Of a DNA stretch of 64,000 nt, positions 49,388 through 62,911 are shown piece by piece. The notes beneath the pieces were generated by a model. It was given only the letters and a program-made list of their open reading frames with translations, made no database searches and was not told the DNA's origin. Source of the DNA: Fodinibius sp. Rm-B-1B1-1 (lineage in GTDB: Bacteria > Bacteroidota > Rhodothermia > Balneolales > Balneolaceae); assembly GCF_038594945.1 (NCBI RefSeq), contig NZ_JBCFYD010000002.1, positions 496,001 through 560,000 on the forward strand. Direction: 5' to 3'. Every line of letters starts with the position of its first letter. Positions within the stretch are counted from its first letter, which is position 1. Made by a program: the position numbers and the translations under genes.

Positions 49388-49516
49388 GCCTAACGACATT
49401 GTATATAACCGGCACACGCAATTTCTATTTATTTTGCAACTAACGAAAGATGAGTTTTAAAACCAAGGGCGGCAACCAATAGGCGAGGTATGTCCGAGTT
49501 AATGCGCGGGTTAGCC
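49388..49516 (-). repeat. attC site 4 (family B variant)
   Basis: Boxes GCCTAAC (49388-49394) and GTTAGCC (49510-49516), which are not fully complementary to one another. The left L box is altered to GTATATAA. The module to its right has poor end matching. Confidence 0.82.
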
Positions 49517-49539
49517 TACTGGTAAAGTTAATTGTTTTA

Positions 49540-49998
49540 TTACTCTTTGAGATATTTAGCAGGATCAATAGGGTTTCCATCTTTTCTTATCTCAAAATGA
49601 AAACCTGCAGTTATAGCTTTTCCTGATTTACCTGAGTAACCTATGAGTTCTGATGCTTTTACTTTTTGACCTGATGACAATCCTTCCAATGGTTTTGATA
49701 AATTACAATAGTAAGTTTGATAACTATTTGGGTGTTCAATAATGATCATATTACCATAGAAATCTTTTATGCCTACAAATTTGATTATACCTTCTGTAGA
49801 GGCAAAAATTTTTGTACCAACAGGAACAAGATAATCAATGCCTGAATGAAATCTTTGTTCTCCTGAATTAAGATGTGTTCTTGGACCGAATGGAGAAGCA
49901 ATTTCTTCATCCTCTTGAATTGGGTGGTGAAAAACTACTTCTTGATTCAATAGGCTTAAAGAGAACAAAAGAAAAAGTGAGCTAACAAATATTTTCAT
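49540..49998 (-). CDS. Secreted M23 metallopeptidase (cassette)
   Basis: 152 residues. Signal peptide (MKIFVSSLFLLFSLSLLNQEVVF), then a LytM domain: SPFGPRTHLNSGEQRFHSGIDYLVPVG (zinc ligands H and D), IIIEHPNSYQTYYCNLSKP, and AGFHFEIRKDGNPIDPAKYL with the final His. The usual HLHFE is FHFE here, so the first His of that motif is missing and activity may be changed. It would cut peptidoglycan cross-bridges. Confidence 0.85.
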   Translation of the reverse strand: MKIFVSSLFLLFSLSLLNQEVVFHHPIQEDEEIASPFGPRTHLNSGEQRFHSGIDYLVPVGTKIFASTEGIIKFVGIKDFYGNMIIIEHPNSYQTYYCNLSKPLEGLSSGQKVKASELIGYSGKSGKAITAGFHFEIRKDGNPIDPAKYLKE

Positions 49999-50133
49999 AA
50001 CAAAATTAATTGTGGTTTAATATTGCACCATTAGATAAAAAGATTACTCAGAAACACATCAATTTTAATTTTAAAAGCGATAGTAAGTATATCAGATTAA
50101 GTTGGGAGCTACTGTTAATACAATCCCTAAGCA

Positions 50134-50199
50134 GCCTAACGATATTGCGCATAAGGTGAAGTTTTGGCGAGGCGTGTCCGCTTAATGCGCAGGTTAGGC
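50134..50199 (-). repeat. attC site 5 (66 bp, minimal)
   Basis: Boxes GCCTAAC (50134-50140) and GTTAGGC (50193-50199), with both L boxes (GCGCATAA, TTAATGCGC) intact, but the whole variable terminal part is gone. The stop codon of the gene at right lies inside the right box. Confidence 0.9.
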
Positions 50200-50427
50200 A
50201 TTTTCTTGTTCGTTAGTCTGAAAGAGGGAAATATTTTTGCCCAAAAATTCAATGAGCATTATACCACCAAATGCAAAAAAACTCATGATCAAAATTTCCA
50301 CGAAAAAGCTTGTCCAATAGCTTTGGAATAGGTCAGAAAAATCAAATAACAATTGATAGATAATTATTCCAATGAAAGGTCCGAAACAATTTCCGACAAA
50401 TTTCTTATCCTTCATAGATGATTGCAA
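50194..50427 (-). CDS. Small two-helix membrane protein (cassette)
   Basis: 77 residues: KFVGNCFGPFIGIIIYQLLFDFSDLF, then WTSFFVEILIMSFFAFGGIMLIEFLGKN. Its TAA is formed by the R box of attC 5, the classic compact cassette design. The module ends match over 10 bp (GTTAGGCATT / AATGCCTAAC). No known family recognised. Confidence 0.6.
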   Translation of the reverse strand: MQSSMKDKKFVGNCFGPFIGIIIYQLLFDFSDLFQSYWTSFFVEILIMSFFAFGGIMLIEFLGKNISLFQTNEQENA

Positions 50428-50461
50428 ATTTTATAAAAAAAAGTTCATTATTTAGAATAAT

Positions 50462-50576
50462 GCCTAACGACCTTGCGTATAAGCTTCACACGAACGAATG
50501 TTGAGTTGATAAATAATGAATGATGAGCTAAAAAGCCAGAAGTTGGCAAGCTCTGGCGAGGCGTCGCGGGTTATAC
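50462..50576 (-). repeat. attC site 6 (family A, 12-bp deletion)
   Basis: Boxes GCCTAAC (50462-50468) and GTTATAC (50570-50576). Compared with site 7, the right arm lacks 12 bases covering the L box, including the extra A, so integrase recognition should be lost. Confidence 0.85.
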
Positions 50577-50661
50577 ACCCGATTTGCCCAAACCTTATTT
50601 ATGGGACAATCCTCTCAGACGTTTATGCAGGGATTCGGAAAAATCGGCTATTGTATGTTAG

Positions 50662-50692
50662 TTTGGAAGTTTAATTTTATACACTACTTTTG
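50662..50692 (+). promoter_or_regulatory. Perfect Bacteroidota-type promoter
   Basis: TTTG (50662-50665), exactly 19 bases, then TACTTTTG (50685-50692), a full match to TTTG-N19-TAnnTTTG. It faces the plus-strand gene at 50789, about 97 bases downstream, and would free it from array transcription running the other way. Confidence 0.65.
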
Positions 50693-50788
50693 TAAAAGTG
50701 ATTATAGCTTCAAGAGAAAAAAATACAATTAACAATTAACCATAGTTAACCAGCTGATTACCTGTTCATTTTAAAAAAGAGGCTTCAA

Positions 50789-51391
50789 ATGATGTATCGA
50801 CACTATTCACCGTTCCGATCAATTTTGAATACCGCACTGCTCCTACCAATCCTGGTCTTGCTTACGTTCTGTTGTAAAGAGGCTGAAAACAAGGTTCAAT
50901 ATCCGGAGACAACTTACAGTAATGTTGAACTTCATTTGGACGGCAAGCGTGATAAAAAACTTGAGAAGCCTTTAGGTACTCATTACACTTCCTCCGGAGA
51001 GCCCTTCATGGGAACGCGAAAGATTTATTACTCCGATACAGACAGTCTGCATATGAAGCAGTTTTTTGAAGATGGGATACAAACGGGATCTGTCATTTAC
51101 TATGATGACGGAGATATTGTTCGACAAAAGCATGGTATATATCTAAATAAGCCTCACCTTAAGGAAATGTATGAAAATGGGATTTTAGTTTATGAAAATG
51201 TCCCACCTACGCAAAGCAAAGACGGAATGGGTCATGTTCGCTTGTGGTACAAGAATGGGCAGCTTTCAGTTGAACATTCTTACACTGGAGACCAGGTAAA
51301 GCAAGGACTTTTGACGGAATATGATGAAGAGGGCAATATTACCATGCAAGAACGATATGAAGATGGGGAATTGGTAGAAACGATAAAATAA
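50789..51391 (+). CDS. YwqK/MORN-like lipoprotein in an inverted cassette
   Basis: 200 residues. N-terminal hydrophobic signal with a Cys pair (LTFCCKEAENK), then repeats of the MORN-variant/YwqK type (KQFFEDGIQTGSVIYYDDGDIVRQKHG, LWYKNGQLSVEHSYTG, LLTEYDEEGNITMQERYEDGELVET). Databases often call these toxin-antitoxin-like, but it is a secreted repeat protein here. It runs against the attC direction and has its own promoter at 50662. The attC on its left (site 6) is broken. Confidence 0.75.
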   Translation: MMYRHYSPFRSILNTALLLPILVLLTFCCKEAENKVQYPETTYSNVELHLDGKRDKKLEKPLGTHYTSSGEPFMGTRKIYYSDTDSLHMKQFFEDGIQTGSVIYYDDGDIVRQKHGIYLNKPHLKEMYENGILVYENVPPTQSKDGMGHVRLWYKNGQLSVEHSYTGDQVKQGLLTEYDEEGNITMQERYEDGELVETIK

Positions 51392-51413
51392 CGAAGGTTT
51401 GTTGCAGTAGGGG

Positions 51414-51542
51414 GTATAACGACATTGCGCATAAGCTGCACGCGAATGAATGTTGAGTTGATAAATAATGAACGGAAAGCTAAAAAGCCAGAAAAGGGCA
51501 AGACCTGGCGAGGCGTGTCCGCTTAATGCACGCTGGTTAGGT
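51414..51542 (-). repeat. attC site 7 (family A)
   Basis: Boxes GTATAAC (51414-51420) and GTTAGGT (51536-51542). Arms GCTGCACGC and GGCGTGTCC covary. Orientation matches the other sites although genes on both sides are on the plus strand. Confidence 0.92.
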
Positions 51543-51638
51543 GTATTTTTATGACAGGACCAATTAATGAATATAATTGCAGGTTATTCTTAATTTTTGT
51601 AAATATTTTTAAATGGGAGGGGTTAAAAAATCATTGTT

Positions 51639-52625
51639 ATGAAATATTACTATCAAGGAGTACTCTTAGGTATACTATTAATAGGCTTTCTATCCTGTAC
51701 CAATAAGCAAGATAGTAATGATACATCAAAAGCAAAGCAAGAGAGTAGTAATACATCAGTAAATGGACCAGCATTAGTGGAAGTAAGTGCTATTTACGAA
51801 CCCGAAAGTGATCGCCATTTATTTAAAACCGATACGGATACGATATCAGCAGGTTGGACTACTTTTAAGTTTGCGAATCTAAGTCCGATGGTACATTTTC
51901 TGTTTTTTGACTACTTACCTGAAGGTAAGATGAGCGAGGACCTTTTGGCAGAAGTGAGTCCGGTATTTCAGGAATCTTCTTATTTGCTAATGGAGGGTAA
52001 AAATGATTCGGCTCAGGCAGTCTTTTCAAAACTTCCTGACTGGTTTAACGATATCGTTTTTCGCGGGGGTCCAGGATTTGTTTCGCCCGGCAAAACTACC
52101 GAAGCCACACTTTTTATGAGACCCGGCAACTACGTGATGGAATGTTATATAAAAACGGCTGACGGTACCTTTCATTGGAAGAAAGGAATGACCAAAGATC
52201 TACATGTCACTTCTGATACAACGGATGCCAACCCACCGCAATCACCCACAATTGAAATAACAACAAACGACAACGGGTTAGATATTACTGGTGAGGTTAC
52301 CCCCGGTAACCATTTGGTTAAAGTAAATTTTGATGAAGAGAATCCTGGGATGATTGCCCGAGATGTACATATTGCTAAGTTGGACAAAAATGATGATCTG
52401 CAGGACATTATATATTGGCTTGACTTTAACAATGCTGAAGGACTCGTTTCAACAGCGGAGGATCCAGCTCCGGCTACGTTCATAGGTGGTACACATGAAA
52501 TGCCAAGAGGTAATACTGCCTATTTTACTGTAGAGTTAGAACCAGGGCGATATGCTTGGATATCAGAGCAACCTACCAGTAAATCGACTGTCAGGGAATT
52601 TACCGTATCTTCCCAATCTGAGTAA
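51639..52625 (+). CDS. Cupredoxin-like lipoprotein in an inverted cassette
   Basis: 328 residues. Lipobox LIGFLSC, then two similar beta-rich halves: ...TDTISAGWTTFKFANLSPMVHFLFFDYLP...GPGFVSPGKTTEATLFMRPGNYVMECYIKTADG and ...GEVTPGNHLVKVNFDEENPGM...AYFTVELEPGRYAWISEQ (read in parts). The PGxYxxxC-type end of each half is cupredoxin-like, but the copper ligands are not clear. Its stop lies inside the 12-bp module end repeat. It runs opposite to the attC direction. Confidence 0.6.
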   Translation: MKYYYQGVLLGILLIGFLSCTNKQDSNDTSKAKQESSNTSVNGPALVEVSAIYEPESDRHLFKTDTDTISAGWTTFKFANLSPMVHFLFFDYLPEGKMSEDLLAEVSPVFQESSYLLMEGKNDSAQAVFSKLPDWFNDIVFRGGPGFVSPGKTTEATLFMRPGNYVMECYIKTADGTFHWKKGMTKDLHVTSDTTDANPPQSPTIEITTNDNGLDITGEVTPGNHLVKVNFDEENPGMIARDVHIAKLDKNDDLQDIIYWLDFNNAEGLVSTAEDPAPATFIGGTHEMPRGNTAYFTVELEPGRYAWISEQPTSKSTVREFTVSSQSE

Positions 52626-52628
52626 TAC

Positions 52629-52756
52629 ACCTAACGACATTGCGCATAACCTGCGCACGAATTAATGTTGAATTAGCAACTAACGAAAGAGGAGACTTAA
52701 AACCAAGAGCAGCAACGAATAGGCGAGGTGCGTCCGCGTTAATGCGCGGGTTATAC
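52629..52756 (-). repeat. attC site 8 (family B)
   Basis: Boxes ACCTAAC (52629-52635) and GTTATAC (52750-52756). Contains the family B block GCAACTAACGAAAG. The left module pairs GTTAGGTGTATT with AATACACCTAAC. Confidence 0.92.
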
Positions 52757-52801
52757 CGACTTATATTTATACAAGGATTTAAGTAAACATGACATATAAA
52801 C

Positions 52802-53299
52802 TTAATCGAAGAATGTAATAAGTAGACGATGGTGGAATAAAGAAGATGTAGAATCTAGTGCAGAGTGATTAATGCTGAATGATTTAAATTTAAGACATTC
52901 AAAACATCCACCGTAACTCAGATAATCTTCAGATGTAGTATCAACTTTCCAAGAACCAAATGAAATACTATAATTTTTGTCTACTTCGAGATCTATCTTT
53001 GCATTCCCTTGGCTAATAGGTTTGGTGGTATCATACTTTGAAAAGCTAAATGCAAAGGAAAAAGTCCCAGATGGTACGGTTTTGTTTTGTGATTTAGGCT
53101 GATTATCAGTTAATGTAATCTCTTGGCTACTTTCGCCAACTTGTATTTTAATTCTACCTTCATTCAATAGTTTGTCATGTTGAGGAGAAGAGGAAAATTG
53201 AACAGTAGGATTTTCTTCTTCCGCACTGAATACGGAGCAGCTACTGGTCAAAACTGAGAAAGCTAAAAATAAGATTGCAAAATTAGGTATTGGTTTCAT
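52802..53299 (-). CDS. Small lipoprotein (cassette)
   Basis: 165 residues. Signal and lipobox LTSSC near residue 20, then a short beta domain (GRIKIQVGESSQEITLTDNQPKSQNKTVPSGTFSFAFSFSKYD) and a tail with DYLSYGGCFECLKF. Family unknown to me. Between attC 8 and 9, whose module ends match over 13 bp (GTTATACCGACTT / AAGTCGGTATAAC). Confidence 0.6.
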   Translation of the reverse strand: MKPIPNFAILFLAFSVLTSSCSVFSAEEENPTVQFSSSPQHDKLLNEGRIKIQVGESSQEITLTDNQPKSQNKTVPSGTFSFAFSFSKYDTTKPISQGNAKIDLEVDKNYSISFGSWKVDTTSEDYLSYGGCFECLKFKSFSINHSALDSTSSLFHHRLLITFFD

Positions 53300-53331
53300 A
53301 ACACTTCTTGATTTATTGGATTAAAAAGTCG

Positions 53332-53458
53332 GTATAACGACCTTGCGCATAAGGTGCGCACATAATAAAGTTGAGTTGATAAATAATGAACGAAGAGCTA
53401 AAAAGCCAAAAGCTGGCAATCCCTGGCGAGGTGCGTCCCCTTAATGCGCGGGTTATAC
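53332..53458 (-). repeat. attC site 9 (family A)
   Basis: Boxes GTATAAC (53332-53338) and GTTATAC (53452-53458). Arms AAGGTGCGCAC and GTGCGTCCCCTT covary. Central part contains AGCTAAAAAGCC. Confidence 0.93.
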
Positions 53459-53465
53459 CCACTAA

Positions 53466-54119
53466 TTACCGTAATTTATTCTTAAGTAACTTTTGAATTT
53501 TTTCCATCGCTTCTCTCATTTTTTCTAATTGATATCGCTTGTCTCGAGTAACAACTTTATCTGAGTATAAATAATTATGCACGTGAATTTCATAATCATG
53601 CGAATACTCGTTGTTCTCTAAATCTTCATATTCAACAGACACATTAATTTCTCTATTTTCCTTTTCTGTTTTCATGGTATCAAATGATATACCAATCATA
53701 TCATTTGCAGAAAAACCTGGCGGCATAAATTTCTGTGTTATCATGTTTTTATAAGATTCCCGATAGGATTCTGTAAACATTGCTGACAAATCTGGATCAA
53801 AAGAAATGGAGACATTTTTTGCTGGCCTATTTCCAATATTCTTCACTTTTAAATCAAGTCTGTGATTTATGTAAGGGAAACTAACCACAATGTATGGTCG
53901 ATTTTGTTCTTTTATAGATTGATTATTAGATCTTAAAATCAGATATGTCAGAAATACATACACAAGCGTTAAGCCAGCAAGTATTACATTTGAATAGGAT
54001 CCAATATTAGAAACAAATTGACTTCCAGGTTTAGCATAAGACTGATAAATGAGAAGAACACCCAAGCCAGCAAAAAATATCAGAGAGATAGCTATGAGTG
54101 TTTTTTGAGTTTTTGACAT
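53466..54119 (-). CDS. Two-helix membrane protein with beta domain (cassette)
   Basis: 217 residues. Helices LIAISLIFFAGLGVLLIYQSY and NVILAGLTLVYVFLTYLIL, so both ends face the cytoplasm. Then a beta-sandwich (PYIVVSFPYINHRLDLKVKNIGNRPAKNVSISFDPDL) and a C-terminal coiled coil (YQLEKMREAMEKIQKLLKNKL). The cassette at 60972-61649 has the same architecture, including the N-x-G-x-x-x-A-K-N motif. No catalytic residues seen. Its module ends are GTTATACCCAC / GTGGGTATAAC. Confidence 0.7.
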   Translation of the reverse strand: MSKTQKTLIAISLIFFAGLGVLLIYQSYAKPGSQFVSNIGSYSNVILAGLTLVYVFLTYLILRSNNQSIKEQNRPYIVVSFPYINHRLDLKVKNIGNRPAKNVSISFDPDLSAMFTESYRESYKNMITQKFMPPGFSANDMIGISFDTMKTEKENREINVSVEYEDLENNEYSHDYEIHVHNYLYSDKVVTRDKRYQLEKMREAMEKIQKLLKNKLR

Positions 54120-54139
54120 TTATCTAGCTAATTTTGTGG

Positions 54140-54267
54140 GTATAACGACCTTGCGCATAACCGGCGCACGTTTTACTGTTGAATTAGCAACTAACGAAAG
54201 ATGAGTTTTAAAACCAAAGGCGGCAAAGAATTGGCGAGGTGCGTCCGCGTTAATGCGCGGGTTATAC
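54140..54267 (-). repeat. attC site 10 (family B)
   Basis: Boxes GTATAAC (54140-54146) and GTTATAC (54261-54267). Left arm AACCGGCGCAC, right arm GTGCGTCCGCGTT. Confidence 0.93.
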
Positions 54268-54287
54268 GGTATAATATTTATTGTACT

Positions 54288-54620
54288 TCATTTTGGCCAA
54301 TTGTTACCATCATCTCTAGATTCTTCACGTCTTTTCCAACCTTCTTCAAGTGAATCTATTCGTTCCTTTAAACCTTCGATTCTACTTTTAAGAGATTGCA
54401 AAACCGATTTAAGTTCATCTTCTGAATCAATTAAGAAATAACCATTACTATTACTTCCTATTGGTATATTATTATCGAGAATAGCTTCTCTAATTAGATT
54501 TCGAGTAGGTTCTGCTGTTCTTCCTGAATCTAATCCGAGTGACGCTTCTATATCATCAGCATTTTGAGAATTTTGTGAACCATCGTTGAGTTGTTGAATT
54601 AAATCTTGAATAGTTGCCAT
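54288..54620 (-). CDS. Small winged-helix-like protein (cassette)
   Basis: 110 residues. After a polar start, the segment RNLIREAILDNNIPIGSNSNGYFLIDSEDELKSVLQSLKSRIEGLKERIDSLEEG resembles phage and plasmid regulators with a short winged helix (...IPIxSxxxGYFLxxxxEEL...) followed by a coiled coil. It may bind DNA. Which gene it controls is unknown. Module ends are GTTATACGGT / ACCGTATAAC. Confidence 0.55.
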   Translation of the reverse strand: MATIQDLIQQLNDGSQNSQNADDIEASLGLDSGRTAEPTRNLIREAILDNNIPIGSNSNGYFLIDSEDELKSVLQSLKSRIEGLKERIDSLEEGWKRREESRDDGNNWPK

Positions 54621-54657
54621 AATGATTAATTAAAATGATTGAAAAGATTATTAGACC

Positions 54658-54787
54658 GTATAACGACATTGCGCATAACCGGCAGGCGCCGGGATGTTGA
54701 ATTAGCTTTAAAACGATAGATTAACTAATAAATGAAAGGGAGGCAAGGAGATGGCGAGGCCTGTCCGAGTTAATGCGCGGGTTAGCC
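54658..54787 (-). repeat. attC site 11 (family C)
   Basis: Boxes GTATAAC (54658-54664) and GTTAGCC (54781-54787). Arms CCGGCAGGCG and GGCCTGTCC differ together from families A and B. Central block GATTAACTAATAAATG. Confidence 0.93.
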
Positions 54788-54796
54788 ATACTTGTT

Positions 54797-55531
54797 TTAA
54801 GACATTCTTATGATATGCTTCATAAATGACGATGTTATCTCAAATATAAATTCAATTTCCTCTTCAATTACAGCATCATCATGCTTGACATATGAATTTT
54901 GATAATGAGTATAATAATTAATTAGTCTGACGAACATATTTCTTAGCTCAGGAGAACCACCTTTTGTTTTAAGATGGTTACCTACATTAGAAATCTGGTT
55001 CTCCAAGGATTTATTATTATTAAAGATACTCTTTAGTAATATTTCGAGTGATAAACGTAAATCATCTAGGGTATTTCTCTCAAAAGCATCATTCTCAAAC
55101 TTTGTCAGCGCACGCTCATAAATTTTTAATGCTTTGGGATAATCTTTGAGCCAATGGGTTGTTTCTTCAATAAGTATCTCATTAACACTTGAATCATCTA
55201 ATCCATCGGAAAAATGAGAATACCTAGAGATGAGTTTTATTTTTAGATCTTTAGCTTTTGAATTGTTTTGAAACTTTTCTAATTCACAAATATCCTTGAT
55301 TATTTTAAACTGTTGGGCAGGCGTAAAGCATTCAAGGTTGTCTTTTAAGGCTGTTCTTTTATTAATGATCCCTTTAAATGGATAGTCAGAATGGGGCAAT
55401 TCGACATTATATTCAAATGCATATTTGGAAGTCTTATCTACTATTTCTGAACCACTTAAGCCAGAGTGTGTTTCTCCAAGAATACTAGCTGCATGAGTTA
55501 AAAAAGTCTTATCAATTTCTTCTTTTTGCAT
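54797..55531 (-). CDS. AbiJ-like abortive-infection protein (cassette)
   Basis: 244 residues. The N-terminal half (HAASILGETHSGLSGSEIVDKTSKYAFEYNVELP and NKRTALKDNLECFTPAQQFKIIKDICE) matches the AbiJ N-terminal domain pattern. The C-terminal half (NTLDDLRLSLEILLKSIFNNNKSLENQISNVGNHLK...MFVRLINYYTHYQNSYVKHDDAVIEEEIEFIFEIT) is the helical Abi C-terminal domain type. Such proteins are proposed to stop growth of phage-infected cells. Family name from pattern memory; a profile search is needed. Module ends GTTAGCCATACTT / AAGTATGGCTAAC. Confidence 0.75.
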   Translation of the reverse strand: MQKEEIDKTFLTHAASILGETHSGLSGSEIVDKTSKYAFEYNVELPHSDYPFKGIINKRTALKDNLECFTPAQQFKIIKDICELEKFQNNSKAKDLKIKLISRYSHFSDGLDDSSVNEILIEETTHWLKDYPKALKIYERALTKFENDAFERNTLDDLRLSLEILLKSIFNNNKSLENQISNVGNHLKTKGGSPELRNMFVRLINYYTHYQNSYVKHDDAVIEEEIEFIFEITSSFMKHIIRMS

Positions 55532-55559
55532 TAGGACAAATTTAGTGTTTGAGAAGTAT

Positions 55560-55686
55560 GGCTAACGACATTGCGCATAAGCTGCGCACGAAAAAATGTT
55601 GAGTTGATAAATAATGAACGAAAAGCTAAAAAGCCAGAGGTCGGCAGGGTAGGGCGAGGTGCGTCCGCTTAATGCGCTGGTTAGGC
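55560..55686 (-). repeat. attC site 12 (family A)
   Basis: Boxes GGCTAAC (55560-55566) and GTTAGGC (55680-55686). Right arm has GTGCGTCCGCTTAATGCG. Central AGCTAAAAAGCC. Confidence 0.93.
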
Positions 55687-55688
55687 CA

Positions 55689-56402
55689 CTAGCTCTTTGT
55701 TTTTAGGGATGTTCTTATAATATCATAGTCTGGCTCTTCATTAATTTTTTTAAAAAACACATCGGTAAATTCTAAAGAAGATTTTACGCTCCATTCAGCG
55801 CATCCATGACCTAGACATTTATCAGGGTAGAAGGGATTTCCATCTCCTGTAAATGGATTTTCATTAAACTTACCCTTCAAATACTTCTCAAATTTGTGCT
55901 TGTCTTTGGGATCGGAAGGAGGAGTTACATCTGCTAGAATACTTTCTGGTTCAAAATGAATTAAAGCATTTCTTAAAATAATTAAGAATTTAGCGTTGCT
56001 ATAAAATTCTACTCCTCGATTGAACTCATCTTTATCCAGTAAATCCAAAAATATTTCATATTTCTGTAAAATTGGATAGCTAGCAGTTCTTGGGATTCCT
56101 TTGTCCCATAATCTAGATATAAGTTCCAACTTTGATTTATTAACATTATCAAATTTATCGACATTCTCATTTATGTCGCAATAGATTTCATTAATTAAAG
56201 CCTCTAAAAATGTTACTGACTTAAATATAGAACCAAGCACAAATGATTTATGCTCCGCTAAAAAATCAACTTTTTGTTTAGGATTTGTTGGTTTGTCTGA
56301 CTGCTCATATTCATGAGCTTTTCTAGCAAAGAAGGCTGCTGATTTTATTAAGTCGAGGGACAAATATGTCCTCAAATGCATTTGATATGAAGTACTAACC
56401 AT
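55689..56402 (-). CDS. HEPN-motif protein (cassette)
   Basis: 237 residues, mostly helical. It carries LIILRNALIHFEPE (about 142-155), that is R-x4-H, the HEPN ribonuclease signature. An earlier helix pair is SAAFFARKAHEYEQ and GSIFKSVTFLEALINEIYCDIN, which fits HEPN-like scaffolds. A Cys-rich insert (PDKCLGHGCAEWS) follows. HEPN RNases act in toxin-antitoxin and phage-defence systems; no antitoxin partner is adjacent, though the AbiJ-like cassette is next to it. Activity is inference. Confidence 0.65.
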   Translation of the reverse strand: MVSTSYQMHLRTYLSLDLIKSAAFFARKAHEYEQSDKPTNPKQKVDFLAEHKSFVLGSIFKSVTFLEALINEIYCDINENVDKFDNVNKSKLELISRLWDKGIPRTASYPILQKYEIFLDLLDKDEFNRGVEFYSNAKFLIILRNALIHFEPESILADVTPPSDPKDKHKFEKYLKGKFNENPFTGDGNPFYPDKCLGHGCAEWSVKSSLEFTDVFFKKINEEPDYDIIRTSLKTKS

Positions 56403-56430
56403 GAGAATATTTTTTCCTTGTTAGTAAGTG

Positions 56431-56561
56431 GCCTAACGACCTTGCGCATAAGGGGCGTGCAAAGTCGCGTTGAAATTATTTTAAAATGTACTGTTGAAAC
56501 GGATTAAATCGAAACCAGCAGCCAACGGCGAGGCACGTCCCACTTAATGCGCGGGTTAGGT
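56431..56561 (-). repeat. attC site 13 (family D)
   Basis: Boxes GCCTAAC (56431-56437) and GTTAGGT (56555-56561). Arms GGGGCGTGC and GGCACGTCCCAC covary. Central part TTTTAAAATGTACTG is nearly identical in site 18. Confidence 0.93.
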
Positions 56562-57248
56562 GGCATTATTATTTACTTGGTCAATAAATTCTATGGTGTT
56601 ATCAACATACTTTCTTGCTTCACCAGATACTTGCTCATAAAGTTTTCTTTGAATAGAATTGTTTATTCGATCAGCACCTTCAATAAGAGAAAAAAACTTC
56701 GTCCAATTTATTGCGAAATGAGAAATATTTCCGGACTTAGTAGGTACTTTTGTCTTTGTAATTATATCTGATAATTGTTTTCTATTTTTATTAATCTTTT
56801 TCTCCGCTTTGTGGTCAAAAATAACACCATACATAAAAAGCTCATCTTGAAGTTGATAGGCATCTATTAAGCTTTTCCCAAAAAATAGTGATTTATCAAA
56901 ATCTGCAGTGATTTGACCATAAGAAATAGCACCCTTGATGGGAATACGATTGACCATGCATCGAGCCATTATATATCCGCTTGTAAGAACTATCGAAAAT
57001 AATGAATCACTACTTTTGTTTTTAGTTGTCAAAAGTATGGAGTCAGAAAAGATTAAAGTTTTAATTAAATCTCTTGGAGGTTTTCCTTGAGATAATGGTT
57101 CGTCAAGTTCTTCAACACTATTGATGATTTCGTGGAGTTTTACCATCCGCTTTTTCACATAGCTATGTTTATTTCTAAAAACATAGTTTTTGAATCCCAT
57201 CAGATCAAAGAATGCTGTAAACCTATATTCAGTTTCAGTCCAATTCAT
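56556..57248 (-). CDS. Nucleotidyl-cyclase-fold protein (cassette)
   Basis: 230 residues. Motifs YRFTAFFDLMGFKNYV, LIFSDSILLTTKN and PIKGAISYGQITADFDKSLFFGKSLIDAYQLQDELF resemble a degenerate class III cyclase domain: the metal Asp of FxDLxGF and the SD in FSD are present. Proteins of this shape include Pycsar-type cyclases in anti-phage systems, but no effector gene is next to it. Its TAA is part of attC 13. Cyclase activity is inference. Confidence 0.55.
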   Translation of the reverse strand: MNWTETEYRFTAFFDLMGFKNYVFRNKHSYVKKRMVKLHEIINSVEELDEPLSQGKPPRDLIKTLIFSDSILLTTKNKSSDSLFSIVLTSGYIMARCMVNRIPIKGAISYGQITADFDKSLFFGKSLIDAYQLQDELFMYGVIFDHKAEKKINKNRKQLSDIITKTKVPTKSGNISHFAINWTKFFSLIEGADRINNSIQRKLYEQVSGEARKYVDNTIEFIDQVNNNAT

Positions 57249-57283
57249 TTTTTTAATTCAATAAGTAAATGATTAATGAAGCC

Positions 57284-57412
57284 ACCTAACGACCTTGCGC
57301 ATAAGCTGCGTGCAGACCAACGTGGTTTTAAGACAAAATGTACTACAGAAATTGAGGAACTAAAAATCGGCAGCCAAGGGCGAGGCACGTCCGCTTAATG
57401 CGCGGGTTAGGT
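57284..57412 (-). repeat. attC site 14 (family D-like)
   Basis: Boxes ACCTAAC (57284-57290) and GTTAGGT (57406-57412). Arms GCTGCGTGC and GGCACGTCC. Central part contains AAAATGTACTACAG. Confidence 0.92.
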
Positions 57413-57895
57413 TGCAACTTCATTTCCTGAAGGTTTTAATGATGAAATAATAAATCTTGGTAGCAGTATTCCAGCCCAAGCACTAATTAATACCCAAGGA
57501 AGTGCTGAAAACCCATCTGACCATGAAAAACCTAAATTTCCAGTTGGTAATACGTATGAAAAGAAAACAACCAAGGTGAAAGGTAGGGCTAAAAGAAATG
57601 AGGTTAGGACAACTTGTTTTTTATAAAAATCAATGGAGGGTTTTTTGCTAGCTAATTTTAAAAAGCCATAAAAAAGCAAGGAATACGGAATGACTGTAAT
57701 TAGAGCGATAAACCCTCCAAAATATACTCCTGAAATGAGGCTGTATACAATAAGACTCAAAATTTGATCAATGGTTTCTCCCCGAAGTAGTGGCTCAAAA
57801 ATTGAAATAACTGTGGCCCAAACCATCGTACCCAATATTGCAGCCGAAATGGCCCAGATGAAAGAAGTTTTGAGTGGTGCTTTGTTTGTTTTCAT
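57407..57895 (-). CDS. Four-helix membrane protein (cassette)
   Basis: 162 residues from ATG 57893-57895. The longer frame to 57943 would run through attC 15 and is rejected. Helices: TSFIWAISAAILGTMVWATVISIF, IYSLISGVYFGGFIALITVIPYSLLFYGF, VLTSFLLALPFTLVVFFSYVL and PWVLISAWAGILLPRFI. Unknown function. TAA is built from attC 14. Module ends match over 13 bp (GTTAGGTTGCAAC / GTTGCAACCTAAC). Confidence 0.75.
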   Translation of the reverse strand: MKTNKAPLKTSFIWAISAAILGTMVWATVISIFEPLLRGETIDQILSLIVYSLISGVYFGGFIALITVIPYSLLFYGFLKLASKKPSIDFYKKQVVLTSFLLALPFTLVVFFSYVLPTGNLGFSWSDGFSALPWVLISAWAGILLPRFIISSLKPSGNEVAT

Positions 57896-57913
57896 AGGTT
57901 TAAAACTGTTGCA

Positions 57914-58040
57914 ACCTAACGACATTGCGCATAAGGTGCGCACGAAAAAATGTTGAATTGTTAAATAATGAACGATGGGCTAAAAAGCCAAAAGTGGGCA
58001 AGACCAGGCGAGGTGCGTCCCCTTAATGCGCGGGTTAGCC
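57914..58040 (-). repeat. attC site 15 (family A)
   Basis: Boxes ACCTAAC (57914-57920) and GTTAGCC (58034-58040). Arms AAGGTGCGCAC and GTGCGTCCCCTT. Central GGCTAAAAAGCC. Confidence 0.93.
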
Positions 58041-58043
58041 GTA

Positions 58044-58961
58044 CTACTCCTCTTGATCGGAAGGTTTATTTCCATGTTTTTCGTCAATTCCAGAAAGTTT
58101 AGGAATATTATTTAATCCATTTTCTGATACTTTAGGCACAGAAACTGATTTACTTGAGATATATTCAAATGCCGTTTTCGCATTTTGTAATGCCTCATCA
58201 CAATTAGCAGCTATTGTTACTACGGCTGCAAGTACAATAACTGTTTGAGATAGTGTTGAAAAAACTTTATTCCATGAGGTTTTATCACTTTCTAGTTCAT
58301 CTACAACGTTGTCTAATTCAGTAGTTAGTTTCTTGACAACACCGGCTGGAATTTGTTCGTCTTCGTTTAAGGAGGACTTTATTTTTCCGACAAGTATCTT
58401 TAAATAATTTTTAGATATATGACGGGGATCATAAAAATCCTCAATTACAAAAACATCTTCATTTGTTAACCACCATTTTTTAGCTTCTCTTGAAGCTGCC
58501 CCACACATTCCAGCCAATCTTTCTAGTGCTGTCTTAAGGTCTAGCAATAATTGAGAATTTAATTTTTTGTATCCACTTTCAGGAATTTGAAGCTCAATGT
58601 CTTGGCTCTGAATTTTACGAAATAGGACAAATCTAGTTGGGCTTAAACTTTCTCTCATCATTCCAAGACGAACTATATTTTGAGAAAGGTTTAATTTAGA
58701 TTCAATATCTGAAATTCTTTCATTTAGCTCTTTGCTGAATATTTCAACTATACTTTGAATTGCATAAAAAACTTCTTCAAAACGTCTAAGTAAACCCAAT
58801 TCATCGTTTATAATAATCTTATTGGGATAGATAGAATTAGAACAGTAATGCATGAAGTTTTGGGCTATCTTTAACTGAGGATGTAATTCATAGCTGGAGC
58901 GATCTGGATTAAGCAATTTTTCTAAATTATCCTCAAGTTCTTCAGAATTAATTTCTTTCAT
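58044..58961 (-). CDS. Unknown helical protein with one membrane segment (cassette)
   Basis: 305 residues, the longest minus-strand cassette gene. Helical N-terminal two-thirds with HYCSNSIYP, RRFEEVFYAIQSIVEIFSKELNERISDIE and TALERLAGMCGAASREAKKWW, then a hydrophobic segment (STLSQTVIVLAAVVTIAANC, about 242-261) and a polar tail. I recognise no domain. The long helical body with a late membrane segment recalls effector-like proteins, but nothing confirms it. Module ends GTTAGCCGTAC / GTACGGCTAAC. Confidence 0.65.
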   Translation of the reverse strand: MKEINSEELEDNLEKLLNPDRSSYELHPQLKIAQNFMHYCSNSIYPNKIIINDELGLLRRFEEVFYAIQSIVEIFSKELNERISDIESKLNLSQNIVRLGMMRESLSPTRFVLFRKIQSQDIELQIPESGYKKLNSQLLLDLKTALERLAGMCGAASREAKKWWLTNEDVFVIEDFYDPRHISKNYLKILVGKIKSSLNEDEQIPAGVVKKLTTELDNVVDELESDKTSWNKVFSTLSQTVIVLAAVVTIAANCDEALQNAKTAFEYISSKSVSVPKVSENGLNNIPKLSGIDEKHGNKPSDQEE

Positions 58962-58986
58962 ATAAAGGATTGTTGTTAAGTTGTAC

Positions 58987-59114
58987 GGCTAACGACCTTG
59001 CGCATAAGCTGCGTGCGCCAACGTGTTGAAATTGTTTACAGATGAAAGGGTAACTATAAAAAGAGAGGTTGGCAAAAATTGGCGAGGCACGTCCCCTTAA
59101 TGCGCGGGTTAGGT
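58987..59114 (-). repeat. attC site 16 (family D-like)
   Basis: Boxes GGCTAAC (58987-58993) and GTTAGGT (59108-59114). Arms GCTGCGTGC and GGCACGTCCCCTT. Its central part (ATGAAAGGGTAAC) is unlike other sites. Confidence 0.92.
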
Positions 59115-59118
59115 AAAC

Positions 59119-59928
59119 TTACCCAAGAAGCTTAAAATTTAGATTGACTAGTAATTCTGATAATTCAATTTCTTCTTTTTTACAGAATTCAAAAAGTTGG
59201 ATTGGTATGTCCCAGTCATTAAAATCCTTTATTTCAACTTCTGGCTTTTCATCCATGTTCAAGTAATAATCTGTAGTCAAATCATATTTTTCTAAAATTC
59301 TTATATGTTTTTTTAATTTCTCCGCTCTTGTTTGTGTTACTTCCTCTAACTCTTCCGGATTTATAACATTATCGAAGAAATTTTTCTCGTGCCTTTCAAT
59401 CATAATGGTATAAACTCTCCTTGAATTTTCAGGTACTTTACTTAAGACATCCAAATATTCTTGAATATCCTTTGCAGTTTCTTCAAGTTCATCTTCTTTT
59501 AGATTCCAACTGAGGCTTTTACTTATTTTTGAAAGTTTTGCAGGAGGGGCAACTTTAATCTCTTTTGTCTTATCTGTGATACTATTGAATATTTTATCAA
59601 CTGCTGAAGTATATCTATCCTCATGCTGATATTTTATCATTTTAAGACGACCAACAGGAAATTTTTCTACATCGTTAGTTTTTGTGTGATGTATTTGACA
59701 CAATAGCATCAGGTTATCAAAACTTCTTCTTTCTTCATTTGTTTGGTCAGGATTAAATCTTTCGCCACCAGGCATGGCAGCCTCAATATGACATACTTCT
59801 CCAACATAATCTCCATCTTCGTCCATGATTACATTTTGGCATTTCGGAAAGGCACATTGATTACCTGATTTAAGATATAATTCTCTCAGAGTGTCTTTTT
59901 CTGGGGTGAGCCTTTTTGGTTCTTCCAA
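59119..59928 (-). CDS. HNH endonuclease-like protein (cassette)
   Basis: 269 residues. The N-terminal domain reads LYLKSGNQCAFPKCQNVIM...GEVCHIEAAMPGGERFNP...SFDNLMLLCQIHHTKTNDVE (in parts): CxxxC, CHIEA with the catalytic His, N, and CQIHH, the His-Asn-His metal nuclease pattern. The C-terminal 180 residues are helical and unfamiliar and may recognise a target. A role in nicking foreign DNA is possible. Module ends match over 14 bp (GTTAGGTAAACTTA / TAAGTTTACCTAAC) and include the stop codon. Confidence 0.8.
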   Translation of the reverse strand: MEEPKRLTPEKDTLRELYLKSGNQCAFPKCQNVIMDEDGDYVGEVCHIEAAMPGGERFNPDQTNEERRSFDNLMLLCQIHHTKTNDVEKFPVGRLKMIKYQHEDRYTSAVDKIFNSITDKTKEIKVAPPAKLSKISKSLSWNLKEDELEETAKDIQEYLDVLSKVPENSRRVYTIMIERHEKNFFDNVINPEELEEVTQTRAEKLKKHIRILEKYDLTTDYYLNMDEKPEVEIKDFNDWDIPIQLFEFCKKEEIELSELLVNLNFKLLG

Positions 59929-59962
59929 TCTGGAATGAAAATTTAGATTACAATTTAAGTTT

Positions 59963-60089
59963 ACCTAACGACATTGCGCATAAGGTGCGCACGAAAAAAT
60001 GTTGAGTTGATAAATAATGAACGGAGAGCTAAAAAGCCAAAAGTTGGCAAGGCCTGGCGAGGTGCGTCCCCTTAATGCGCGGGTTAGGT
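59963..60089 (-). repeat. attC site 17 (family A)
   Basis: Boxes ACCTAAC (59963-59969) and GTTAGGT (60083-60089). Arms AAGGTGCGCAC and GTGCGTCCCCTT. Central AGCTAAAAAGCC. Confidence 0.93.
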
Positions 60090-60096
60090 GTAGAGA

Positions 60097-60804
60097 TTAT
60101 TCTTGCCAACTATCTAACACTCCATCTTCGAAGTAAAGATATTTTCCATTTGGATAAACCCATTGTTCTCTTACGCTATACGAAGTAGTTGTTCTATTTA
60201 CATCATTTGGTCTGCCAAGAGCTTCTCTGGCCATTTCGTCTGTCATTCCGATCCAAATTTCCCCATCTATTAATCTTTTAGCAGTTGATTCACCATATTT
60301 TTTAATTAATCGAGCTAGTTTAGGATTATTTTCTTGAATTTTCTGAAGTTCTTTCTGCTTAATTTGGGATTTAATCTGCCGAACAAATTTATTCTCTTTT
60401 AAAGCCCCATAAGAAATGTAACCAACTTCACCATTATAAGATGCTTTCACATAAGGTTTTTGGAACCAATCATAAATTAATACTTCGTCATTTTCTTCAA
60501 GTTCGACAATTACATTACCATTGCTTGATGGTTTATCTCTTAATCTACCACCAATCATAGATATTCTTGTAGGAACTCCTTTTTCTCTCTCACTTTCTAA
60601 TTTAATTTTATTGACTTGACCTCTTAATTCCGAAATTTTGTTAACTAATTGCTCTCTTTCGGTTTCCAGAGAATCAATTTGTGACTCAATCAAATTTTTG
60701 TTCTGATTGAGTTGATTAATTTCTGAATTTAAAGAATCAACTTCTTGAGCCAATAAAATTCCAGGAAGTAGAATCAGAAATATTAGAAAACTGATGTATC
60801 TCAT
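60097..60804 (-). CDS. Secreted coiled-coil/SH3-like protein (cassette)
   Basis: 235 residues. Signal peptide MRYISFLIFLILLPGILLAQ, a coiled coil (about 22-75; LNSEINQLNQNKNLIESQIDSLETEREQL), a bacterial SH3-like region (LRDKPSSNGNVIVELEENDEVLIYDWFQKPYVKASYNGEVGYIS) and a C-terminal SmpA-like repeat domain (IWIGMTDEMAREALGRPNDVNRTTTSYSVREQWVYPNGKYLYFEDGVL). Probably periplasmic, perhaps peptidoglycan-associated. Module ends are GTTAGGTGTAGAG / CTCTACACCTAAC. Confidence 0.8.
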   Translation of the reverse strand: MRYISFLIFLILLPGILLAQEVDSLNSEINQLNQNKNLIESQIDSLETEREQLVNKISELRGQVNKIKLESEREKGVPTRISMIGGRLRDKPSSNGNVIVELEENDEVLIYDWFQKPYVKASYNGEVGYISYGALKENKFVRQIKSQIKQKELQKIQENNPKLARLIKKYGESTAKRLIDGEIWIGMTDEMAREALGRPNDVNRTTTSYSVREQWVYPNGKYLYFEDGVLDSWQE

Positions 60805-60835
60805 GATGGTTTAGTTGATTTTAAAATTACTCTAC

Positions 60836-60966
60836 ACCTAACGACATTGCGCATAAGGGGCGTGCAAAACAACGCTGAAATTGTTTTAAAATGTACTGCA
60901 GAAACTGATCAAATCGAAACCAGCAGCCAACGGCGAGGCACGTCCCACTTAATGCGCGGGTTAGGC
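60836..60966 (-). repeat. attC site 18 (family D)
   Basis: Boxes ACCTAAC (60836-60842) and GTTAGGC (60960-60966). Nearly identical to site 13 across the centre (TTTTAAAATGTACTG, ACCAGCAGCCAACGG), suggesting recent copying of one attC onto two cassettes. Confidence 0.93.
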
Positions 60967-60971
60967 AAAGT

Positions 60972-61649
60972 TTACGTTTGTTCGTCTTCTTGGAAGCTGT
61001 CAAGTTTCCTGTTTAGCTGCTTAAGTTCTCTGATAATTTTTTTAAAAAGCTTTGGTAATTTCTGCATCTCGTAGTGAGTTTTGATTTCTTCTCTATCGTA
61101 AACTAAAGTGCCTTTATAGTGTTCTGCACTCAAGCGGAATGGTTGCTCATAATCTTTTCCACTCAAATCAGAATATTTTAAAACTCCAGTAAATACTACA
61201 GGATCATTCTTTTCAAAAAAACTGAAGTGAACATCTACTTTCTTCAATATTTCTTCTCCCTGAGAAAGTTTAAGAATATCGTAGTCTTCAGATGAGCTAT
61301 TAAAAGTTACAACTTCGTCTTTATTATTTACGATATTATTGTCCCATTCAATTTTGATATTTTTTGCTGCAGAACCACCTTTATTGGCTAATGACAATTG
61401 AATTAGGCTATAACGACTCCTGAAATCAAAACTCAATTCCAAATCTGGTTTCAGTGCTTCCTTTTGTAAAACAACATTTTCAAAACTTGACCAAGCAGAA
61501 ATTACGGAAGCTAAAACTGCTAAAACAGCGACAAGAGTTGCCCATGTAGAGACATTAGAAACACCAAGAATATTTATAGCAGCAATAAATATTGTAATGC
61601 TAAATACAAATACTGCAAATAGTAAAATTCGAGGGAGATACTTGAACAT
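60972..61649 (-). CDS. Two-helix membrane protein with beta domain (cassette)
   Basis: 225 residues. Helices ILLFAVFVFSITIFIAAINIL and WATLVAVLAVLASVISAW, then a beta-sandwich (LELSFDFRSRYSLIQLSLANKGGSAAKNIKIEWD) and a C-terminal coiled coil (LPKLFKKIIRELKQLNRKLDSFQED). Same architecture and NxGxxxAKN motif as the cassette at 53466. The start codon is 14 bases from attC 19. Module ends match over 13 bp (GTTAGGCAAAGTT / AACTTTGCCTAAC). Role unknown. Confidence 0.7.
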   Translation of the reverse strand: MFKYLPRILLFAVFVFSITIFIAAINILGVSNVSTWATLVAVLAVLASVISAWSSFENVVLQKEALKPDLELSFDFRSRYSLIQLSLANKGGSAAKNIKIEWDNNIVNNKDEVVTFNSSSEDYDILKLSQGEEILKKVDVHFSFFEKNDPVVFTGVLKYSDLSGKDYEQPFRLSAEHYKGTLVYDREEIKTHYEMQKLPKLFKKIIRELKQLNRKLDSFQEDEQT

Positions 61650-61662
61650 GTTTTCTAACTTT

Positions 61663-61790
61663 GCCTAACGACATTGCGCATAAGCTGCACGCGATGGAAT
61701 GTTGATTAGTTAAATAACAAACGGAAAGGGAAAAAGCCAGAGAGTTGGCAAGCCCTGGCGAGGCGTGTCCCCTTAATGCGCGGGTTAGGC
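61663..61790 (-). repeat. attC site 19 (family A variant)
   Basis: Boxes GCCTAAC (61663-61669) and GTTAGGC (61784-61790). Arms GCTGCACGC and GGCGTGTCC, as in site 7. Confidence 0.93.
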
Positions 61791-61791
61791 A

Positions 61792-62238
61792 TTAACTATC
61801 TATCTGTGTATTGACTTTTAAGCCCTGTACATAATAGATATTTGATGCAAAGAAAAGAGAAAGAACAAATAAGAAAGCGAAAAAACCTTTTATGCCTTCT
61901 GGTGTATTTAATACTAAAAGACCTAAAGTTGTCAAAAAGAATGCAAAAAAATATAAAGCAATGCTCCAGTAACTCAATTTTTCAGACCACCTGAGAAATT
62001 TTAAAGTTAAGGGGCTGGGTTCTTTTGGATGCCTATTAGCTTTTAAGAACCATTCTCCAATTTTTATAGCTTTTTCTTTGCATGCTTTTATTACTTTCTT
62101 GCTTGACTCAAGTTGAAGGGTTTTTGTAATGAATGATAAGACTTTGACCGAAATAGCTACAGTTAAAATTAGTTGGATAAAAGATGAATATTCTCCTTCT
62201 ATAAGGATATGAGCAATACTCTCAAGTAATTTATTCAT
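61792..62238 (-). CDS. Three-helix membrane protein (cassette)
   Basis: 148 residues. Helix 1 (FIQLILTVAISVKVLSFIT), a basic cytoplasmic linker (SSKKVIKACKEKAIKIGEWFLKANRHPKEPS), then YWSIALYFFAFFLTTLGLLVL and GFFAFLFVLSLFFASNIYYV. Unknown family. Module ends are GTTAGGCATTAACT / AGTTAATGCCTAAC (14 bp), reaching into the stop codon. Confidence 0.65.
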   Translation of the reverse strand: MNKLLESIAHILIEGEYSSFIQLILTVAISVKVLSFITKTLQLESSKKVIKACKEKAIKIGEWFLKANRHPKEPSPLTLKFLRWSEKLSYWSIALYFFAFFLTTLGLLVLNTPEGIKGFFAFLFVLSLFFASNIYYVQGLKVNTQIDS

Positions 62239-62263
62239 AATCTATTTTGGTTTTAAAGTTAAT

Positions 62264-62393
62264 GCCTAACGACCTGGCGCATAACTGGCAGGCGCAACAG
62301 TCTTGAATTAGTTTTAAAACGATAGATTAACTAATAAATGAAAGGGAGGCAAGGAGATGGCGAGGCCTGTCCGCGTTAATGCGCGGGTTATGC
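62264..62393 (-). repeat. attC site 20 (family C)
   Basis: Boxes GCCTAAC (62264-62270) and GTTATGC (62387-62393). Arms CTGGCAGGCG and GGCCTGTCCGCGTT. Central block GATTAACTAATAAATG matches sites 2 and 11. Confidence 0.93.
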
Positions 62394-62400
62394 CCACTTT

Positions 62401-62754
62401 TCATTGAAGACCATTATCTGATTTGAAATTCACAACCTCTGAGATAATAATTTCATAACCGCTATACCATTTGTTATAATTCTGCTTGGCTTTTTGATGA
62501 TTTGGGTTGTTAGAAAATTGTTTTAATGATTCTAAGCTATCCCAATAATAAACTACTGCCCTTTTGTTTTCTTCTTCATTAGACCAGCTCTCCTTGCCTA
62601 AAAAACCAGAATTAGAGTTCGCCACTTCATCTATAATGCTATTTAAACTTTCGAACTCCGAATCGTAATTTTTAATACGGAAAACAAAAGTTGCTGAGTA
62701 AACAGAGGATCCATTGTTAAGAAGTTTGCTAATCTGTTCTGTACATCTTTTCAT
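62401..62754 (-). CDS. Antibiotic-biosynthesis-monooxygenase-like protein (cassette)
   Basis: 117 residues. Pattern SATFVFRIKNYDSEFESLNSIIDEVANSNSGFLGKESWSNEEENKRAVVYYWDSLESLKQFSNNPNHQKAKQNY (in parts) fits the dimeric alpha/beta-barrel ABM fold, with a conserved YWDSLESLKQF and the following His. These small enzymes oxidise quinones or bind haem; others are ligand sensors. Module ends are GTTATGCCCACTTT and AAAGTGGGTATAAC, one mismatch. Confidence 0.75.
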   Translation of the reverse strand: MKRCTEQISKLLNNGSSVYSATFVFRIKNYDSEFESLNSIIDEVANSNSGFLGKESWSNEEENKRAVVYYWDSLESLKQFSNNPNHQKAKQNYNKWYSGYEIIISEVVNFKSDNGLQ

Positions 62755-62784
62755 AATCTCGATTTATTGCTGAGAATAAAGTGG

Positions 62785-62911
62785 GTATAACGACCTTGCG
62801 CATAACGGGCGCACGGATTACTGTTGAATTAGCAACTAACGAAAGAAGAGACTTAAAACCAAGAGGGGCAAGAATTGGCGAGGTGCGTCCACGTTAATGC
62901 GCTGGTTAGGC
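62785..62911 (-). repeat. attC site 21 (family B)
   Basis: Boxes GTATAAC (62785-62791) and GTTAGGC (62905-62911). Arms AACGGGCGCAC and GTGCGTCCACGTT. Confidence 0.93.

Follow-up and report, generated by a model that had tools for sequence, protein, structure and literature searches.

Do two adjacent small genes in the genome of Fodinibius sp. Rm-B-1B1-1 (Balneolaceae) make up one defence system, or are they separate genes, and how could the product of each act? Both lie in the window, the 64,000-nucleotide stretch of contig NZ_JBCFYD010000002.1 analysed here (C2:496001-560000 of the organism's own genome, G000 in our set); positions without the prefix C2 are those of the window. A first-pass annotation had described two open reading frames, each with its own attC site, as a possible defence pair. 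The frames were found where it had put them, each with an attC site of its own, and are listed here with the evidence for each:

54658-54787, minus strand: attC of the p1 cassette (strict pattern; covariance model, 111.8 bits)
54797-55531, minus strand: p1, 244 aa, a helical N-terminal domain and an HEPN-type C-terminal bundle (open reading frame; PDC-S32 match; model)
55560-55686, minus strand: attC of the p2 cassette (strict pattern; covariance model, 139.9 bits)
55689-56402, minus strand: p2, 237 aa, read as a solo HEPN protein (open reading frame; model; HEPN structures at ranks 1-12)
56431-56561, minus strand: attC of the cassette ahead of p2, marking the upstream boundary of the p2 cassette (pattern and covariance model)

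The reading that we favour, with a probability of roughly 0.5, is that p1 and p2 are two independent one-gene abortive-infection cassettes with HEPN-fold effectors, in p1 apparently joined to a death-fold-like domain; the inferred parts of this reading are the death-fold assignment, the RNase activity, the trigger and the anti-phage role.

The setting was established from the attC sites and the integrase. A strict local pattern finds 16 attC-like sites at 49388-62911 of the window, and a covariance model trained on 15 of these 16 recovers a conserved set of 42 genome-wide (36 + 6), 36 of them on the minus strand at C2:542161-574997. Just beyond this 36-site array, and divergent from it, lies an integron integrase gene (C2:576659-577597, plus strand) whose product scores 454 bits against TIGR02249, over the curated cut-off. 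The 36 sites and the divergent integrase together indicate an ordinary sedentary chromosomal integron, in which p2 and then p1 are consecutive cassettes, with some 24 kb between p2 and the integrase. As is expected of an integron gene cassette, each has a single open reading frame with an attC of its own behind it, in an array that comes with an integrase. Energy folding of the attC sites of the p1 and p2 cassettes adds nothing significant (z -0.4 to -1.3), and the attC call is based on copy number, conservation and the integrase. It is noted that six more attC sites of the same type lie about 430 kb off in the opposite orientation (C2:999880-1008771, plus strand), and that the sole integrase over the cut-off in this genome is not located at that cluster.

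Both genes start about 30 bases after the preceding cassette, so that there is scant room for a promoter within either one. The p1 leader (window 55531-55560) carries TAAATTTG a few bases ahead of the ATG, a TAnnTTTG box that we take to resemble the Bacteroidota -7 box; it could give a leaderless transcript starting inside the p1 cassette.

Two other cassettes of the array should be mentioned. The first approximately 120 residues of the product of 59119-59928 (minus strand) match PADLOC PDC-M68A (4.5e-25) as well as the PADLOC endonuclease 'Effector', SAVED-HNH and SduA models, with no Pfam match at 0.01. Counting this cassette with its HNH-type matches, there are at least three defence-like cassettes in the array. 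The cassette at 56556-57248 (minus strand) has no Pfam or PADLOC match at 0.01; the start of its product (FFDLMGF) presumably resembles nucleotidyl-cyclase-like proteins. Integron defence cassettes are reportedly the subject of two 2025 Science papers.

The first-pass annotation had read AbiJ-like and Abi-C-like regions in p1. These could not be confirmed, as no such Pfam model was matched at E<=1 by p1 or by nine relatives. By PADLOC, p1 is a full-length match to PDC-S32 (E 3.1e-82, residues 11-243, profile positions 5-232 of 237), with a weak match to the Cas13-ApeA model over residues 170-224 (0.0047). The PDCs are candidates from guilt-by-embedding and mostly await validation, according to the part of PMC12988326 that introduces them; a literature search for PDC-S32 by name returned no paper. 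PDC-S32 is thus a candidate family of which p1 matches nearly the whole profile, and the layout of a death-fold domain followed by HEPN is read from the model of p1. This model (pLDDT 86.6, pTM 0.52), resting on six sequences of which one has an unrelated N-terminus, shows two helical parts:

54800-55180, minus strand: C-terminal HEPN-type bundle, p1 residues 118-244 (structural alignments)
54881-54901, minus strand: p1 residues 211-217 (Q-N-x3-K-H), at the place of the HEPN Rx4-6H motif with the arginine absent (11 sequences)
55196-55525, minus strand: N-terminal domain, p1 residues 3-112, CARD/PYD-like (structural alignments only)

By sequence, p1 finds nothing meaningful in the PDB. A Foldseek search with the model gave no match at E<=0.001 and nothing usable in BFVD, the first rank being 2hsb (E 0.42, prob 0.99). 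VIA-align superimposes p1 residues 126-244 on 2hsb with Z 10.3 (115 residues, 3.6 Å) and on 7ae6 with Z 7.6, on a scale where Z below 8, or for helical bundles below about 13, can reflect a common arrangement only; from Z 7.3 down, a designed bundle and rhodopsins are mixed with more HEPN chains. The four-helix HEPN fold is therefore found in the p1 C-terminus, with 2hsb at the head, and the Rx4-6H motif is not. Among 11 aligned sequences (p1, L007-L010, L017, L056, L057 and L063-L065), H217 is present in 11/11 and the arginine in 0/11, no arginine standing four to six residues ahead of the histidine.

The missing arginine would fit a bundle without catalytic activity that serves to bind RNA or a partner. 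However, N212, K216 and H217, as well as D156, R159 and E163 on an earlier helix, occur in 11/11 sequences, unlike a decayed site; K167 of that helix is replaced once, by Q in L017. Section 6 of the HEPN review (PMC3710099) also speaks against a dead bundle: it describes HEPN families that keep the histidine without the arginine, in which other conserved basic residues may substitute, and an Ex3[KR] motif. Since such families exist, p1 could act through a rearranged site, or its role could be limited to RNA binding.

The same rival reading takes the N-terminal part of p1 to be an ordinary helical domain, for example of the AbiJ-NTD type, with a death-fold likeness that reflects a common arrangement. 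All of the 10 VIA-align matches confined to residues 2-112 are death-fold structures, at Z 4.4-6.5, below the caution level of the program. The top match is the PYD of AIM2 (7k3r, Z 6.5), followed by the Azospirillum bacterial CARD/death-like structures 9cs7 (Z 6.1, rmsd 2.7 Å) and 8ss1 (Z 6.0, rmsd 2.6 Å), each over 82-83 residues; the others are ASC (two entries), NLRP4, cPOP1, AIM2 again, NLRP3 and the CARD of Apaf-1. None of the 10 sequences listed for the N-terminal profile against the PDB at E<=10 is a death-fold chain, and the Pfam death-fold models gave no match to p1 and nine relatives, so the death-fold call is a structural one. The low Z values and the lack of a sequence match to death-fold chains favour an ordinary domain, against which stands the agreement of 10/10 alignments. 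We consider this rival, a dead bundle with an ordinary N-terminus, less likely than the favoured reading, in which p1 residues 3-112 seem to form a death-fold-like domain, judged from the model.

Across 296 genomes of the phylum, this N-terminal domain occurs in four proteins only, all with the p1-type C-terminus, and no partner protein for a homotypic contact with it was seen there. Its constant association with the same C-terminus points to self-assembly over partner recruitment, or just to a private domain. For two relatives, the significant alignment with p1 is confined to p1 residues 118-244 (L010) and 115-243 (L057), whereas with one another they align further upstream than the part in common with p1. 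They thus share another N-terminus, and the front end of the HEPN family of p1 appears to be exchangeable, as in the AbiJ proteins.

Single-sequence queries with p1 or p2 returned nothing in the genome and viral scans, and the relatives there were found with alignment queries. For p1, 5/296 genomes of the phylum have a match (the organism itself, three close relatives and one C-terminal-only match). There are five loci in viral contigs, one Enterococcus phage among the phage records, and none in the plasmid records. At all five viral-collection loci, the p1 relative has phage genes around it: next to it is a repressor in L056 and a metalloprotease of phrog_87 in L057, in L063 it runs opposite to the tail tape-measure genes that surround it, and in L064 and L065 it comes shortly ahead of terminase and portal genes. 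Such places in prophages are common for cargo and immunity genes. The gene directly after the p1 relative in L064 (4697-6157) matches phrog_11745, a family with no assigned function (2.2e-94); its product begins like what we take to be a TIR/SEFIR protein.

Signs of mobility were also found around the p1 relatives of two genomes of two further families (G111 and G182). Over 772 bp the two share 93.7% identity, in a match bounded by GTTAGGC and GCCTAAC with unrelated flanks; L067 has a 130-base attC-like palindrome on one side of the match. As no integrase passes the cut-off in G111 or G182, these could be stray cassettes. The covariance model from the window found 0 sites across the loci of 53 relatives. 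A simple attC rule recovers only 6 window sites versus the 16 of the stricter local pattern, and its misses at other loci therefore mean little.

The model of p2 is confident (pLDDT 89.8, pTM 0.87). Foldseek gave no match at E<=0.001, and the p2 profile matched no chain among PDB sequences. When VIA-align was run on 988 of the top Foldseek chains, ranks 1-12 were all HEPN proteins (1ufb, MntA-HepT, 5yep, 1wol, 7ae6, 4nqf, 2q00, Csm6 and AbiV), with 116-137 residues aligned at Z 8.3-5.4, values that fall under the caution for helical bundles; after rank 12 come GPCRs and designed bundles, at Z 5.3 and lower. The structure check and the conservation of the motif uphold the HEPN fold that the first-pass annotation had supposed for the second protein, and the RNALIH that it had pointed out as an HEPN RNase motif is conserved beyond chance:

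55956-55973, minus strand: RNALIH, p2 residues 144-149, the Rx4H motif, which closes helix 132-149 (model and conservation)
56202-56204, minus strand: Glu67 of p2, the invariant acid in helix 41-79 (36/37 relatives, one gap)

H149 is found in all of 37 relatives, R144 and N145 each in 36 (with Q for R144 in one relative), W204 in 35 and K114 in 34. This set omits L005 (partial, doubtful), L025 and L032 (duplicates of L002 and L004) and five viral-contig relatives, and retains the partial L046 and L014. It should be mentioned that the 30 genome_contigs loci had been found by two patterns, one of them containing the RNx3H motif; in nine relatives obtained free of these patterns (L002-L004 and L011-L016), the arginine is present in 8/9 and the histidine in 9/9. 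Thus p2 has the four-helix fold, the Rx4-6H motif with a polar residue after the arginine, and the acid in helix 2. In active HEPN enzymes, according to PMC3710099, helix 3 ends with the motif and helix 2 carries the acid, which is where R144/H149 and E67 sit in the model, and the p2 site appears complete. The p2 HEPN fold is supported by the model, and p2 is probably a stand-alone HEPN ribonuclease, its RNase activity being read from the modelled site.

A nuclease of this kind could also serve another end. The two cassettes could be toxin-like or stress-dormancy cassettes, which stabilise the array or slow growth with no role against phages. PMC3710099, in its remarks on integron cassettes, proposes that HEPN proteins carried there are stress RNases, and 3jrt (Vpc_cass2), an HEPN protein carried as an integron cassette like p2, is among the Foldseek matches of p2, though a weak one (rank 21, E 1.3, prob 0.20). 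However, p1 belongs to a family of defence candidates, its relatives in the viral collection are placed among regulatory or structural genes of phages, and there is one gene per cassette with no adjoining antitoxin. We judge this explanation improbable.

The first-pass annotation had been aware of no system that p2 matches, and this holds for the libraries searched: PADLOC, Pfam and NCBIfam returned nothing with p2 alone, nor did Pfam at E<=1. With aligned family members, Pfam PF18735 (HEPN_RiboL-PSP) was matched weakly by 10/30 (best E 2.2e-4) and PADLOC RTasHEPN by 5/30 (best 2.1e-4). Matches to p2 occur in 5/296 genomes of the phylum (the organism itself, three good matches and the partial L005), at 30 genome_contigs loci of many phyla and archaea, in five viral contigs, in 6 of 72,556 plasmid records (Streptomyces, haloarchaea, Proteobacteria) and in 0 of 50,697 phage records. 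The Piscinibacter relative (L044) has GTTAGGC on one side and a strongly folding attC (z -13.4) on the other; 11 and 10 core sites were counted in the array around it, and a near-perfect attC hairpin stands at the stop codon of the p2 relative. The p2 family is therefore a cassette in two integrons, that of the organism and that of L044.

The surroundings of the p2 relatives are varied. Single relatives adjoin a TIR, an HNH, a trypsin-like protease or a DUF6998 gene, and the neighbour in L060 is presumably DUF262-like. Among the loci surveyed, no antitoxin or conserved partner was seen, and no recurrent partner except in two Microcoleus genomes (L026 4228-5865 and L030 4227-5861), where 88% identical genes of 545 and 544 aa lie 55-59 bases upstream of the p2 relative. 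Three relatives have N-terminal extensions. L018 and L020 share one of about 290 residues and are 58% identical over 520 residues; that of L024 is shorter. In L018 (4031-6720) and L020 (5107-6705), the p2 relative is fused behind this approximately 290-residue region, which contains paired CxxC motifs; 36 bases separate the fused gene of L018 from the end of a trypsin-like protease gene upstream of it. PADLOC gave matches to 72 models over 129 proteins at <=1.5 kb from the p2 relatives, and to 17 models over 92 proteins at >=3.5 kb, as tallies that count models and not proteins, with several models per protein, unsure open reading frames in GC-rich loci, and lists that leave out L001-L005, L025, L030 and L032; for these reasons no rate is drawn from the neighbour survey. 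Overall, p2 looks like an HEPN effector complete in itself, to which a front end or a partner is added in some cases. From sequence comparison, both p1 and p2 look like defence genes, p1 by its family and both by their company, and this is a candidate role.

The wide spread over bacteria and archaea and the absence of a PADLOC entry would also agree with p2 as a housekeeping HEPN protein for RNA binding or processing, taken up into a cassette and not involved in defence. That is quite improbable in view of its patchy presence in the phylum, its occurrence on plasmids and viral contigs, its changing neighbours, and its place as a cassette in two integrons. Although p1 and p2 are adjacent, on the same strand and both of HEPN fold, the defence pair of the first-pass annotation, in which the two cassettes would act together as one system, is not supported and was rejected as highly improbable: each gene has its own attC, only the organism's own genome has both among the five p1 and five p2 matches in 296 genomes, no locus of 62 holds both besides two that cover the window itself, and the HEPN profiles of p1 and p2 are unrelated, giving no alignment. 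We therefore treat p1 and p2 as independent.

For two independent abortive-infection cassettes, we propose the following course of events. p2 would be set free or activated on infection and would dimerise as HEPN enzymes do. It would cut RNA via the R144-N145-x3-H149 site with E67 in support, and this cutting would halt growth before phage release. In p1, the N-terminal death-fold-like bundle would sense an infection signal or self-assemble, bringing the C-terminal HEPN-type bundles together to act on RNA. Because the motif arginine is replaced, p1 would use H217 with K216 and N212 and the conserved R159/E163xxxK167 helix; alternatively, it would bind RNA and leave it uncut. A bolder proposal, which we put forward tentatively from the model, is that p1 may be a one-gene, cassette-borne counterpart of the inflammasome, with a polymerising death-fold domain fused to an HEPN domain with a rearranged site. 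Phage-triggered assembly alone would activate it, and neither an NTPase nor a protease nor a second gene would be needed; it would be traded by integrons and prophages, and its front ends would be pluggable.

Known systems resemble p1 and p2 in parts. In the model, residues 3-112 of p1 appear similar in fold to the bacterial CARDs (8ss1, 9cs7), to the bDLD/EAD domains (PMC8195603) and to the PYD/CARD-like domain of CoCoNuT CnuA (PMC11090510), to the extent that the relevant passages of these papers describe them. In the same passages, bacterial death-fold domains belong to multi-gene systems with NTPases, proteases or gasdermins; in contrast, p1 is a single gene, its domain is fused straight to HEPN, and no partner was seen in the 296 genomes. 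The AbiJ proteins of Lactococcus and relatives have the layout of a variable N-terminus and an HEPN domain, and the C-terminal family of p1 also swaps its N-terminus. However, AbiJ is listed in the portion of PMC3710099 used here with an intact HEPN motif, whereas p1 is without the arginine and matches no AbiJ model. p2 is like PF18735 and the HEPN superfamily, as outlined in that review, in its fold, the RN-x3-H at the end of helix 3 and the acid of helix 2, and differs from them by a long insert before helix 4, in which P193, C201 and W204 are conserved.

The p2 family is widely spread, in bacteria, archaea, plasmids and viral contigs, and none of the libraries searched has a model dedicated to it. 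p1 and p2 would be further cases of integrons storing defence-like genes. p1 also parallels animal proteins that pair death-superfamily adaptors with HEPN RNases, namely the CXorf38 relatives and the DED-TRADD-N-HEPN proteins of oyster and cnidarians, known here from descriptions in parts of PMC3710099 and PMC8195603; the pairing is the same, and the animal proteins are large. If the proposed inflammasome-like working of p1 is true, its 244 residues would offer a minimal example of assembly and killing united in a single chain, and one that would be easily testable.
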